Assembly: GCA_021414085.1 (NCBI GenBank)
Contig: JAIOPC010000007.1
Coordinates: 1-64,000 of the forward strand
Reading direction: 5' to 3'
Length of the DNA: 64,000 bases
Source: Actinomycetes bacterium
Lineage (GTDB): Bacteria > Actinomycetota > Acidimicrobiia > Acidimicrobiales > Ilumatobacteraceae
Shown piece after piece: positions 1,644 to 4,397 of this stretch (position 1 is its first letter; the number at the start of each line of letters is the position of its first letter). Below the pieces are notes generated by a model that searched no databases, was not told where the DNA came from, and saw only the letters and a list, made by a program, of their open reading frames with translations. The position numbers were made by a program, and so were the translations under genes.

Positions 1644-2516
1644 ATGTGTCAGCCTGTCGGCGTGAGTTCTGACGAGGAGCGGTTGGACGGCGGCTGGCAG
1701 ACCGAGGTGACGCGTCGCGGAGGCATAGTCCTGCGGAAGCCGGGGCCACAGTCCTCGACGGTGATCGCGCTTCTCGCGCACCTCTCGGCCGAGGGCTTCG
1801 ACGCGGCGCCGCGGCCGGTGGGTAGCGGGTTCGACGCTGACGGCCGCGAGCAACTGTCGTTCATCGGCGGCGCAAGTCCTCACCCGTTGGCTTGGTCGAA
1901 CGAAGCGCTGTGGCTCATCGGGAAACAACTCGCGGGACTCCACCAAGCAACGAAGACGTTCAAGCCTCAACATCCACAGTGGCGGCCGTGGTTTGCTCGC
2001 TCCCTGCCCGGTTCGATGCCAGTCATCGGGCACGGTGACCTCGGCCCGTGGAACATCATCGCGAGGGACGGACTACCGGTCGCGTTCATCGATTGGGACA
2101 ACGCCGGGCCGGTGGACGCGGCATGGGAACTTGCGCAAGTTGTGTGGCTCAATGCCCAACTACATGACGACGACGTTGCTGCGCTCAACGAGCTTCCGGG
2201 ACCTACGGATCGGGCACGGCAGGCAGCACTCATCCTCGACGGGTACGGCCTATCTCGCGAAGACCGCGAGGGTTTCGTCGACAAAATGATCGAGTTCGCA
2301 GTCCGGTCTACTCGCGATGAGGCGGTCTTATCTCACGTCGGCCCCGACACGTCCAGTCCGTCACCGAACGGCTTCCCGCTTCTGTGGGCCGTTGTCTGGC
2401 GAGCGCGGGCAGCGGCGTGGATGCTCGACCACCGCAGCCTGCTCCAGTCAATGCTCGCCAGAGCTGACGCGCCGCCTTCACCGCAACCCCACACTCCGCG
2501 GGAGGGGCGCTCTTAG
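1644..2516 (+). CDS. Aminoglycoside phosphotransferase (APH)-like kinase
   Basis: A protein of 290 residues with the phosphotransferase (protein-kinase-like fold) signature: the Brenner motif HGDLGPWN at about residues 130-137 (catalytic Asp and metal-binding Asn) and IDWDNAGP at about 149-156, the metal-binding DxD/DWE-type site. The N-lobe has the strand GGIVLRKP with a candidate ATP-binding lysine. This family includes aminoglycoside kinases, homoserine kinases and many unassigned actinobacterial enzymes, so resistance is possible but not shown. Starts at ATG 1644 or GTG 1662 both precede the domain; an earlier frame start at 1593 overlaps the recombination site. The TAG stop (2514-2516) lies inside site D, so the gene ends within its own putative attC. 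Confidence 0.75.
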   Translation: MCQPVGVSSDEERLDGGWQTEVTRRGGIVLRKPGPQSSTVIALLAHLSAEGFDAAPRPVGSGFDADGREQLSFIGGASPHPLAWSNEALWLIGKQLAGLHQATKTFKPQHPQWRPWFARSLPGSMPVIGHGDLGPWNIIARDGLPVAFIDWDNAGPVDAAWELAQVVWLNAQLHDDDVAALNELPGPTDRARQAALILDGYGLSREDREGFVDKMIEFAVRSTRDEAVLSHVGPDTSSPSPNGFPLLWAVVWRARAAAWMLDHRSLLQSMLARADAPPSPQPHTPREGRS

Positions 2517-2532
2517 GAGTAGATCAGGTTGC
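2483..2532 (+). other. attC-like site D, best-folded copy
   Basis: The site has two nested perfectly complementary arm pairs: outer GCAACC (2483-2488) with GGTTGC (2527-2532) and inner ACTCC (2493-2497) with GGAGT (2516-2520). The arms are separated by CCAC on one side and AGATCA on the other, and the inner loop is 18 nt. This R''-spacer-L''-loop-L'-spacer-R' order with the conserved AAC/GTT triplets is the architecture of integron attC sites. The outer right box GTTGCAC departs from the usual GTTRRRY consensus. Confidence 0.6.
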
Positions 2533-2577
2533 ACGTCGTCATTCGCGGGGTTGAGGCGTGCTCGTACACTTCGGCAG

Positions 2578-2943
2578 ATGGACGCCCCGATGCCCGACGA
2601 TGGCAAGCGGCGCGCGCTTGAGGTCTTCTTAGGTGACCTTCGTGCTGATCCCGAGGTCGTCGCTGTGTTCCTGTTCGGCTCTCACGCGAGAGGCGACGAC
2701 CGACCCGACAGCGACATCGACCTGTTAGTGATTGCCGCCGACGCGTTTCGCCAGACCGTGACGCGGCTCGACGGCGTTGAGTTCGAAGTCTTCCGAAACA
2801 ACGCGGCGGACACCGTCGCCTTCTGGAGAGCGAATCGAGACGACTTCGAGAATTTCTGGCGCGACGCAAAGCCGCTGTTCGACCGTGACGGGACGGTCGC
2901 CCTCCTGAGCGCCGCTGCGGCCGCTATCCGGAACGGGCCGTGA
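2578..2943 (+). CDS. Minimal nucleotidyltransferase (MNT-type)
   Basis: The 121-residue product carries the DNA polymerase beta-like nucleotidyltransferase motif: GSHARGDDRPDSDIDLL, with GS at 34-35 and the metal-binding pair SDID at 45-48, followed by VEFEVFRNN where a third acidic residue is expected. Such minimal nucleotidyltransferases are usually the antitoxin-like partner of HEPN toxins, adding AMP to them; others modify drugs or tRNA. No HEPN gene follows here: the next gene is on the other strand and encodes a lipoprotein. A start at ATG 2578 fits the family length. It occupies cassette 4 (2529-3003) alone, 49 bases after the recombination point. Confidence 0.75.
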   Translation: MDAPMPDDGKRRALEVFLGDLRADPEVVAVFLFGSHARGDDRPDSDIDLLVIAADAFRQTVTRLDGVEFEVFRNNAADTVAFWRANRDDFENFWRDAKPLFDRDGTVALLSAAAAAIRNGP

Positions 2944-2989
2944 GGCGCTCCGCTCCTGAGGTCGGATGAACTGACGCGAGCGGGCTATT

Positions 2990-3009
2990 AAGAGTCGATC
3001 AGGTTGGTG
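2990..3009 (+). other. attC-like site E, right half only
   Basis: TTAAGAGT-CGATCA-GGTTGGTGG matches site D at TTAGGAGT-AGATCA-GGTTGC with the same 6-base spacer. A left partner is poor: AACTGA (2969-2974) could pair with TCAGGTT if one G is bulged, a pattern known from attC folds, but the inner arm has no clear complement. Confidence 0.4.
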
Positions 3010-3098
3010 GCGTTTGTTGGCACCAAGAGGTCGTTCGCTCCACGCTCGCTGGCCGGCTCCGCCTACGCCCCATGTCGGGCCTGACCGGTGCTATCGCG
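3010..3098. other. Short gene-free stretch at the start of cassette 5
   Basis: Nothing beyond site E and the end of the reverse-strand lipoprotein gene is recognised here. Confidence 0.3.
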
Positions 3099-3455
3099 TC
3101 AAGCGCGCCCTCTAGCGCAGTCGCCCTCGGCTACGGGGAACACTTGCTCGACAACAGGATCATCCAGAATTCGAGACGGCAGCCCTTCAATCCACGAAAG
3201 TGCATCAACTCCGTCCACCAAAAGCAGTTCGAGGTAATCAGGACTGAGATGCAACTCAAAACCTCGTGCGCCCGGAAGATACGAGTCGCCTACGACAAAC
3301 TGGGCTTGCAAAGCTCCGATGGCCTCCCAGTCTCCGTTCAGCACGAAACAAGCGGCATTAATCTTTGCCGAGCTCTCGTCCGACTCGCTGCAACCAACAG
3401 CCATCGCGACTGTTGTGGCAAGGGCAACACACCGGATCGTTGTCGCTATGCCCAT
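3099..3455 (-). CDS. Small putative lipoprotein in reverse orientation within a cassette
   Basis: A 118-residue product starting at the ATG at 3453-3455 has a signal peptide (MGIATTIRC, then VALATTVAMAVGC) with a lipobox AVGC and the lipidated cysteine at residue 22, followed by a polar SESDESSAK stretch. The rest is unfamiliar but has ordinary soluble-protein composition (SPDYLELLLVDGVDALSWI). A further upstream in-frame start would add 12 residues before the signal peptide and is less likely. It is transcribed against the putative cassette direction, which is a minority arrangement in cassette arrays and usually means the cassette carries its own promoter. Function unknown. Confidence 0.6.
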   Translation of the reverse strand: MGIATTIRCVALATTVAMAVGCSESDESSAKINAACFVLNGDWEAIGALQAQFVVGDSYLPGARGFELHLSPDYLELLLVDGVDALSWIEGLPSRILDDPVVEQVFPVAEGDCARGRA

Positions 3456-3671
3456 TCTGTGAGTCTGGCGCGGCCGCAGCAATAACCACAATGCACCCCG
3501 GCCGACGCCCGATGATTCACTCGCAGGGGAGCTACTAGGAGTTGAGCAGGTTGCTGGTCCTCGTCAGCGCGCTTCGTAGGTGCTGTGTTGCGCGCGACGC
3601 GGAGACCCCCATGCCTGCGCAATCTCTCTTGAGTTGATGAGCGGCGGCTGGAAAGTGCCGCCCTAGGTTGA
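3456..3671. other. Gene-free region between two reverse-strand cassette genes
   Basis: It contains site F and, at 3641-3661, a CGGCGGC/GCCGCC hairpin with an 8-base loop directly followed by CCTAGGTTGACTATGCG, which echoes the GGTTGGATATGCG of site B. The hairpin could also end transcription of the DUF4386 gene. No coding frame is supported. Confidence 0.35.
3477..3556 (+). other. attC-like site F
   Basis: The right half CTAGGAGT-TGAGCA-GGTTGCTGG repeats the site D pattern with the same spacing. A left outer arm CAGCAA-TA-ACC (3477-3487) complements GGTTGCTG except for two inserted bases. The inner arm GAGT (3539-3542) finds ACTC at 3519-3522, which is out of the normal position. Confidence 0.4.
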
Positions 3672-4397
3672 CTATGCGATGGCCCGCTGAGATTCGACGG
3701 TTGGGCTGTGCTTGAAGCCCTTCCACGCGGCGTAAATACCGAGCAACAATTCCCAAGCGGCTTCCGGCAGCGTCAGCAGGGCTTGCGGCGACGATCCGAC
3801 GTCGAAGGCGCCGAACAGGACCAGCACAAACGCGAGGATCAGCAGAGGACCACCGATGAGACCCACCATCGCTAGGCGGCGAGGCACGAGACCTGAGCGA
3901 TACATCAGGTAGCCGAGCATCAAGCCGTTGCCGAAGCCGACCACGAGTCCCGGCCCAAAGCGGAAGGCCCAGTCGTAGACCGAGACGAGCGTGTTGCCCT
4001 GTACCGCGAGTGCTGCGGCGTCGGCGGCACTGGCCCCACGCAAAGCGTCATTCACACTCAGCACCGAGACGATGCTGATCAGGCCGATCGCGATGAACAC
4101 GGTTTCCATGACGCGAGCGGTGACGTAGCCGAGCGAGAGGATTTGGCTTTGTCGTTTCACTAGCGGGTAGAGAACGACTGCCGTTGCGATGTTGGCCAGG
4201 ATGAGCGAGAACTCCAAGAGTGCGCCAATCTTCAGGCTCGTGTCGGAACCGGCCCCAGCAACGAAACGCATGTCGCTCCAGGAAGCGCCAACTCCATCCA
4301 CGAACAGGAGTCGAGCGGGAATACTCGTGACGAAAGTGGCAATGAAGAACCAGCCAAAGATCCGCCCAATTCTCTTAGTGTCCAATGCTGTATCCAA
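3672..4397 (-). CDS. DUF4386 family membrane protein
   Basis: A 241-residue integral membrane protein with about six hydrophobic segments. The stretch VYDWAFRFGPGLVVGFGNG and then LGYLMYRSGLVPRRLAMVG is the hallmark of DUF4386, a family of unknown function common in actinobacteria and Bacillota. The N-terminus (TKRIGRIFGWFFIATF) leads into the first membrane helix. It lies between the last recognised CAGGTTG site and the polysaccharide genes and points in the reverse direction, like the lipoprotein gene before it. Whether it belongs to a cassette depends on a right-hand site that I could not define firmly. Confidence 0.75.
   Translation of the reverse strand: MDTALDTKRIGRIFGWFFIATFVTSIPARLLFVDGVGASWSDMRFVAGAGSDTSLKIGALLEFSLILANIATAVVLYPLVKRQSQILSLGYVTARVMETVFIAIGLISIVSVLSVNDALRGASAADAAALAVQGNTLVSVYDWAFRFGPGLVVGFGNGLMLGYLMYRSGLVPRRLAMVGLIGGPLLILAFVLVLFGAFDVGSSPQALLTLPEAAWELLLGIYAAWKGFKHSPTVESQRAIA

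Follow-up and report, generated by a model that had tools for sequence, protein, structure and literature searches.

Arrays of mostly one-ORF units at an asymmetric ~42-bp direct repeat in two related Actinomycetota genomes: probable gene cassettes at sites without attC pairing above chance

In Acinetobacter, pdif sites are dif-like with XerC and XerD arms, dif consisting of a 6-bp centre that is flanked by inverted arms of ~11 bp each, and elements of the IS110, IS91 and IS605 type have asymmetric ends and a sequence-specific target and are devoid of terminal inverted repeats. The attC sites of integrons, as described in a passage of PMC3053210, have a GTTRRRY core at the cassette boundary as well as an RYYYAAC inverse core with a palindrome, adding up to 57-141 bp in total. 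Here we describe arrays of short units in the window, i.e. the whole 64-kb stretch of DNA that was analysed, elsewhere in the genome holding it (G000, with C numbers for contigs and C7 as the contig of the window) and in a sister species (G001; record JACQZX010000112.1, an Actinomycetota MAG from groundwater). At no fewer than seven loci in G000, and at two in G001, a direct repeat of ~42 bp separates units that mostly consist of one ORF. Across the aligned sites this repeat has the consensus RGGGTSSTAYTARGAGTKGAYSAGG/TTGSTGRTGYTGGTTG, is asymmetric and in the same orientation, and contains a near-invariant AGGTTG and a GTTGSYG-like box; within each multi-site group all sites point the same way. 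The earlier note on this DNA had taken the site at 2483-2532 for attC-like, and the sites do look like the recombination sites of a gene-cassette array. We consider it probable, at roughly 60%, that the loci are site-specifically inserted gene-cassette arrays, at which a trans-acting tyrosine recombinase would use an asymmetric and probably double-stranded site. Among the CC-licensed PMC articles listed, as far as their titles and the beginnings of their abstracts tell, none describes these arrays.

The array of the window lies on the + strand and opens at its left end with an attI/attB-like leader site, GACCGGGATCAGGTTGCTGAA (357-377), an imperfect inverted repeat of ACC and GGT around 7 bp, which with 0-3 mismatches also opens the loci C1a, C1c and C17a of G000 and C59 of G001. 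The cassette boundaries given here assume a crossover at GG/TT, as we infer. Cassette 1 (370-918) carries a SnoaL-family gene (427-834, +; PF07366, 57.5 bits) and is bounded on the right by a site of the 'GGTCGTA' subtype (893-935; 29.8 bits with a matrix built without the window sites), and cassette 2 (919-1592) carries a gene for a kinase of the AAA_33/Zeta-toxin type (1020-1493, +; PF13671, 71.5 bits), followed by a degenerate site (1567-1609; 15.7 bits, E 0.04 in the profile search). Cassette 3 (1593-2528) holds an APH-family phosphotransferase gene (1593-2516, +; PF01636, 47 bits), the stop codon of which falls within the following site (2503-2545; 29.4 bits). This is the site of the original observation, and it comprises the right half of a palindrome and conserved flanks. 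Cassette 4 (2529-3003) contains a nucleotidyltransferase gene (2578-2943, +; PF01909, 40.9 bits) and its site (2978-3020; 35.0 bits), and cassette 5 (3004-3550) an ORF on the - strand (3099-3491) without a Pfam match, as well as the last recognisable cassette site of the array (3525-3567; 41.9 bits). To the right of it lies a DUF4386 gene (3672-4397, -; PF14329, 128.7 bits), which is possibly a further unit that has lost its right site. No Rfam match at gathering scores and no tRNA were found in the window. The site at 1545-1592 looks interrupted, reading GTGTCGTATTGAG, ~16 extra nt and then GAGAACGCATCAGG, and the site at C1:2081 has an unusual GAACGCATCAGG in common with it. Contigs C7 and C1 open inside the same duplicated gene (positions 1-316 of each, with no difference in the first 141 bases and 92.4% identity across the 316), each copy lying ~66 bp from an array leader; it was probably this repeat that interrupted the assembly. 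The duplicated gene, which we take to be of the DUF222/13E12 type, has no match in Pfam or among plasmids.

A half-site GGAGT-6-GGTTG had been noted before as kept at two further positions, and this holds in part: it is intact on the + strand at 3538-3553, and is present at 2991-3006 with one change (AGAGT). The pattern RGAGT-N6-GGTTG has three matches in 64 kb where 0.14 are expected, and three were reached in none of 100 shuffles; therefore, the repetition of the half-site is not due to chance. A matrix built from 17 sites outside the window recovered the window sites at 893, 2503, 2978 and 3525 with 29-42 bits, the next best match in the window being the degenerate copy at ~1567 (6.0 bits) and the best of 20 simulated windows reaching 9.4; this matrix is the independent test, as the search models R1 and R2 match their own training sites by construction. 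The profile search of the whole of G000 gave 18 site matches at E 0.001, 17 of which are training sites of the search model: four in the window (C7), four at C1a (C1:0.9-2.6 kb), two at C1b (C1:85-87 kb), three at C1c (C1:195.8-196.9 kb), three at C17a (C17:95.3-96.0 kb) and one each at C17b (C17:260.8 kb) and C17c (C17:118.8 kb). A degenerate pair of leader and site at C17d (C17:320.9 kb), recognised by eye, and the loci C59 and C174 of G001 complete the ten loci considered here.

Nine of the ten loci open with a second kind of site, the leader, with the consensus GGTCNRACCGGKATCA/GGTTGCTG and the core RACCGGKATCAGG/TTGCTG. Leaders can be clearly recognised at C7, C1a, C1c, C17a, C17d and C59 of G001, where they have 0-3 mismatches and in one case an additional base, and they are degenerate, as judged by eye, at C17b, C17c and C174 of G001; none was found at C1b. 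The leader is an imperfect inverted repeat with boxes AACC/GGTT around 7 bp: at spacer 7, the best of eight spacers tried, the dyad has 3.44 of 7 matches in leaders (n=9) versus 0.68 in inner sites (n=22), and at spacer 6 the inverted arms have 1.50 of 7 matches in inner sites and 1.89 in leaders. By eye, 7/9 leaders follow an ORF directed towards the leader and are not more than ~80 bp from the ORF's stop codon; in the remaining two, at contig starts, the duplicated gene has its start codon ~66 bp behind the leader. Away from any array, one leader-like match with three mismatches was detected (L032:2604). An integrase was recognised beside none of the leaders in the stretches read, so that the arrangement of attI beside an integrase is not found here.

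The units between the sites are 127-1,841 nt long and usually hold one ORF, with a G+C content of 0.56-0.65 against 0.62-0.67 in the flanks. Relative to the site, 11 of 21 site-bounded ORFs picked are on the + and 10 on the - strand. Pfam searches with 19 proteins assigned nine site-bounded ones above the cut-off and left eight without a match above it, the remaining two being the recombinase of C10 and the DUF4386 protein, which is encoded to the right of the last site in the window. The matched cassette genes encode SnoaL, AAA_33/Zeta-toxin kinase, APH, nucleotidyltransferase, DUF6602 and DUF4145 proteins on the + strand, and SMI1/KNR4, DUF6869 and glyoxalase proteins on the - strand. These gene types are typical of integron cassettes, which the contents of the units resemble. 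A protein comparison of 23 array ORFs gave no pair at E 0.01, and the DNA comparison yielded no more than 40 nt matching between a pair of APH-type genes and 50 nt matching between a pair of cassette ends. Therefore, no coding cassette is common to the arrays, which is why single cassettes can only be presumed to move; strain pairs differing by one cassette were not seen. The only recurring units are gene-less and ~130 nt long, three in G001 and one in G000. Those of G001 share a hairpin (GGGGCTGAATCGTTCC ... GGATTCAGCCCC; L077:4346-4082, L078:4530-4650), which is a dispersed repeat as well and is matched in seven genomes of this genus. The right array ends are ill-defined, and a ~50-nt sequence right of the C17 site at 260.8 kb (L031:7865-7948) has many copies in G001 and several in G000.

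At orthologous places in related genomes the inserts are absent. C59 of G001 is an array of six units (~4.2 kb) between two genes, and these flanks are ~4.37 kb apart in G001; G000 has ~109 bp at this place, and G013 and G006 have ~30 bp each. In the orthologous gap of G000, GGCTTTGAGGGTTGCGC occupies the position of the G001 leader AGCCGGGTTGAGGTTGC and resembles the leader core. At C174 of G001, the flanking genes, presumably atpC and SDR, are separated by 1,103 bp including a mini-unit, and by 18-49 bp in 9/15 other genomes; in the remaining six the right-hand gene has no clear copy there. Gaps at the tldD locus are shorter in several genomes, with no clean target emerging from the comparison. 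The names of the flanking genes (carbonic anhydrase, atpC, tldD, SDR, DprA and WhiB) are our assumptions from the translations alone. Within the family, 6/221 genomes have a match at E 0.001 (18 in G000, seven in G001, two in G029 and one each in G013, G027 and G580), and strong arrays are present in two of the 221, which is a very narrow distribution. Weak R1 matches in G002, G019, G032 and G051 looked like chance when read. The strict exact pattern was found in genome_contigs (84,980 species, G000 possibly excluded) in the G001 record and in one unrelated Bacteroidetes contig, and it was absent from the viral contigs; neither phage relatives of 3.4 kb of the window nor plasmid relatives of 1.8 kb of C1 were detected. 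At G029:C5 (L143:15460-20000), three tandem paralogous stretches with 67-71% DNA identity to the reference copy lie beside two diverged site copies; this may be a related array that uses a site variant of its own.

According to the explanation that we propose, a cassette would be a short unit, usually with one ORF on either strand, together with its ~42-bp asymmetric site in the form GGGGTGCTATTRGGAGTTGATCAGG/TTGCTGGTGYTGGTTG. A recombinase acting in trans would join this site to the leader target RACCGGKATCAGG/TTGC within the common core ATCAGG/TTGC, the leader target having inverted boxes AACC-7-GGTT and being located mostly directly behind a chromosomal gene; alternatively, a site already inside an array may serve as target. 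The left end of an array would then be a leader joint, the units would meet at cassette joints, and a joint of cassette-left and target-right would close the array. The enzyme would presumably be a tyrosine recombinase, either Xer-like in trans or since lost, and the crossover point as well as a circular intermediate and a double-stranded substrate are likewise presumed. The observations behind this explanation are the repeats, the arrays, the two kinds of site and the lack of the inserts at orthologous places, together with attC pairing that does not exceed chance and no integron integrase above the cut-off.

A cognate integrase reading a divergent box had been suspected, and none was found: G000 has three matches to the tyrosine-recombinase family, with no site near any of them and none passing the cut-off of the integron-integrase family. 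In none of the 397 genomes of the order does a protein exceed the 265-bit cut-off of TIGR02249; in G000 the own best match has 71.3 bits and the whole XerD-like protein 108 bits. The best TIGR02249 matches among the 397 are two adjacent gene pieces with stops at G351:C61:5116-5818 (145 and 119 bits). XerD of G000 is above its NCBIfam cut-off, the XerC-like protein has XerC as best family and is below the cut-off, and the third recombinase (C10:121623) is below all family cut-offs; with a completeness of 97.3%, the genome may miss a gene through an assembly gap. Of the tyrosine recombinases found, only the XerC-like and the XerD-like protein are common to the two array-rich genomes, with 72% and 76% identity to their G001 counterparts, respectively. 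C10:121623 was rejected as cassette enzyme, as it has no site match in its 16-kb stretch, in which the 15-nt core by itself is matched three times with two mismatches each, and no ortholog among three further G001 recombinases (best 26.5% identity). Thirteen other members of the genus have 1-15 tyrosine recombinases each, 12 of them being without a site and G013 having one. In the stretches read, no recombinase is linked to any array, and no recombinase-linked copy of the site was found, one of the two outcomes that the earlier note had named as speaking against its interpretation. Inspection by eye revealed no transposase within or next to these arrays. A dif-like or promoter-like 23-mer, GCCCATAATCNNCGTTATGTCAG, is present in all four genus genomes searched (L137:1501-1523, L135, L136, L138), lying in G000 near an ORF that is WhiB-like by eye. 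Dif was rejected as source of the cassette site, to which this conserved candidate has no resemblance.

The window had originally drawn attention by a nested palindrome, which is exact: GCAACC (2483-2488), 4 nt, ACTCC (2493-2497), an 18-nt loop, GGAGT (2516-2520), 6 nt and GGTTGC (2527-2532). Consistent with the remark that its box is not GTTRRRY, this core occurs in 0/28 aligned sites. The interpretation as an attC hairpin was not supported. The left arm (2483-2497) is coding sequence of the APH-family ORF and probably a chance complement. The bottom strand of 2483-2532 with flanks folds with z = 0.02 (105/200 shuffles as good), the 50 nt alone with z = -1.56 (15/200). A similar fold had been expected at the other sites; four other window sites (z = 0.40, 0.24, -0.04 and 0.55) are no better than shuffles, and in one of them, 1530-1600, GTTGG does pair with an upstream CCAAC. 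Over 30 related sites (19 from G000, seven from G001, two from G029 and one each from G027 and G013), R''/L'' partners are not above chance: the nested upstream pairing amounts to 8.97 versus 8.98 in shuffles, with p < 0.1 in 2/30, namely the window site 2483-2532 (0.05) and the G027 site (0.04), and the upstream duplex has z -0.01, with p < 0.1 in 4/30, the window site among them. A simpler pairing test with 22 sites had the same outcome, no partner being above shuffles. As a positive control, a real attC in random flank scored 14 versus 9.09 with 0/300 shuffles as good, its sequence being confirmed by its presence at aadB-annotated cassettes in plasmids. CAAC is found upstream of 16/31 sites (13.3 expected) and its reverse complement GTTG of 17 (12.2 expected); CAACC is found at 8/31 (4.2 expected; 5.5% of shuffles have as many) and its reverse complement GGTTG at seven (3.4 expected). 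Since the reverse complements are in similar or larger excess, the excess of CAAC and CAACC is not strand-specific. A motif search in 28 upstream regions (two near-duplicate mini-units dropped), with eight restarts for the real set and two per control and thus a bias in favour of the real set, gave nothing above shuffles and no conserved left half. By eye, a CACAAGTNCCACAACCGAC-like stretch lies upstream of a few sites, of which BLAST backs one pair (84% over 50 nt). The conserved right half spans ~26 nt left of the presumed crossover and has no conserved pairing partner, and the fold inside the 44-column site alignment has no pairs. With a coding left arm, and with folds and 30-site pairing at shuffle level, the attC hairpin at 2483-2532 was rejected; it looks like a chance property of one member of the site set. 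Altogether, the unit of gene and site bounded by repeats of the site is present as in integrons, and an RYYYAAC inverse core with palindrome did not emerge in four tests covering 22, 30, 28 and 31 sites. The organisation is like that of integrase-less integron arrays, yet the sites are not filed as attC, because features that define attC were looked for here and did not appear.

The same observations bear on a decayed true integron (CALIN), in which the sites would derive from attC captured by a since-lost IntI, with R''/L'' eroded or too variable. The L'-6-R' spacing, GTT at the presumed crossover, the attI-like inverted boxes of the leader, the integron-like gene contents, the somewhat over-represented upstream CAACC and the broken integron-integrase-like gene elsewhere in the order (G351:C61) fit with it, as does a passage of PMC9024848, in which IntegronFinder 2.0 reports a few CALIN in Actinobacteria. 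However, the right half is conserved without a partner, pairing over 30 sites equals that of shuffles, the CAAC/CAACC excess is not strand-specific, no upstream motif exceeds shuffles and GTTRRRY is lacking in all 28 sites, which makes this origin unlikely in our view.

Xer-dependent modules such as those at the pdif sites of Acinetobacter likewise have the size of a gene and lie between recombination sites, according to PMC7399989 and PMC6449649, and XerC-like and XerD-like proteins are what the two array-rich genomes have in common. The cassette sites, however, have no inverted arms at spacer 6 and are unlike the candidate dif-like sequence of four genus genomes, and 12 of the 13 other genus members hold tyrosine recombinases without a site, so that we regard such modules as quite improbable. 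The explanations overlap, as Xer could be the recombinase of the cassette-array reading. Slightly further down we place non-autonomous transposable units with IS110/IS1111-, IS91- or IS200/IS605-like ends, which would carry passenger genes and stand in tandem at a short target: inspection by eye of the arrays read and of their borders revealed no transposase, whereas target and element ends sharing only ATCAGG/TTGC, the ~130-nt mini-units with internal hairpins and several single insertions would suit such an origin. The reading as site-specifically inserted gene-cassette arrays thus remains the one we prefer. More tentatively, and with considerable doubt, these arrays may represent integron-independent gene capture in Actinomycetota, by which a trans recombinase would insert single-gene circles via an asymmetric double-stranded ~42-bp site into inverted-repeat leaders behind host genes; if this is true, the outcome of integrons would be reached without single-stranded hairpin sites. 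A second cassette system, if it exists, would mean either that gene capture by arrays arose at least twice in evolution or that the hairpin step can be dispensed with. Tools that seek attC hairpins would probably miss arrays of this kind.

Compared with known systems, the arrays share with IS110/IS91/IS605-type elements asymmetric ends, a sequence-specific target and the lack of terminal inverted repeats, but they are tandem arrays of different single genes, and no transposase with matching ends was seen. Like the XerCD-dependent pdif modules of Acinetobacter, they have gene-sized modules at short sites and a recombinase that would act in trans, with none in the module; unlike pdif, the cassette sites are asymmetric, in the same orientation and chromosomal, and do not show two arms around a 6-bp centre. 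From integrons they differ by the absence of an attC palindrome above chance, of GTTRRRY cores and of an IntI above the cut-off, and also by several leaders per genome and genes about equally on both strands. With integron arrays and CALIN they have in common the mostly one-ORF units, sites of like orientation with a leader distinct from them, GTT where the crossover is presumed and the occurrence of clusters without an integrase.
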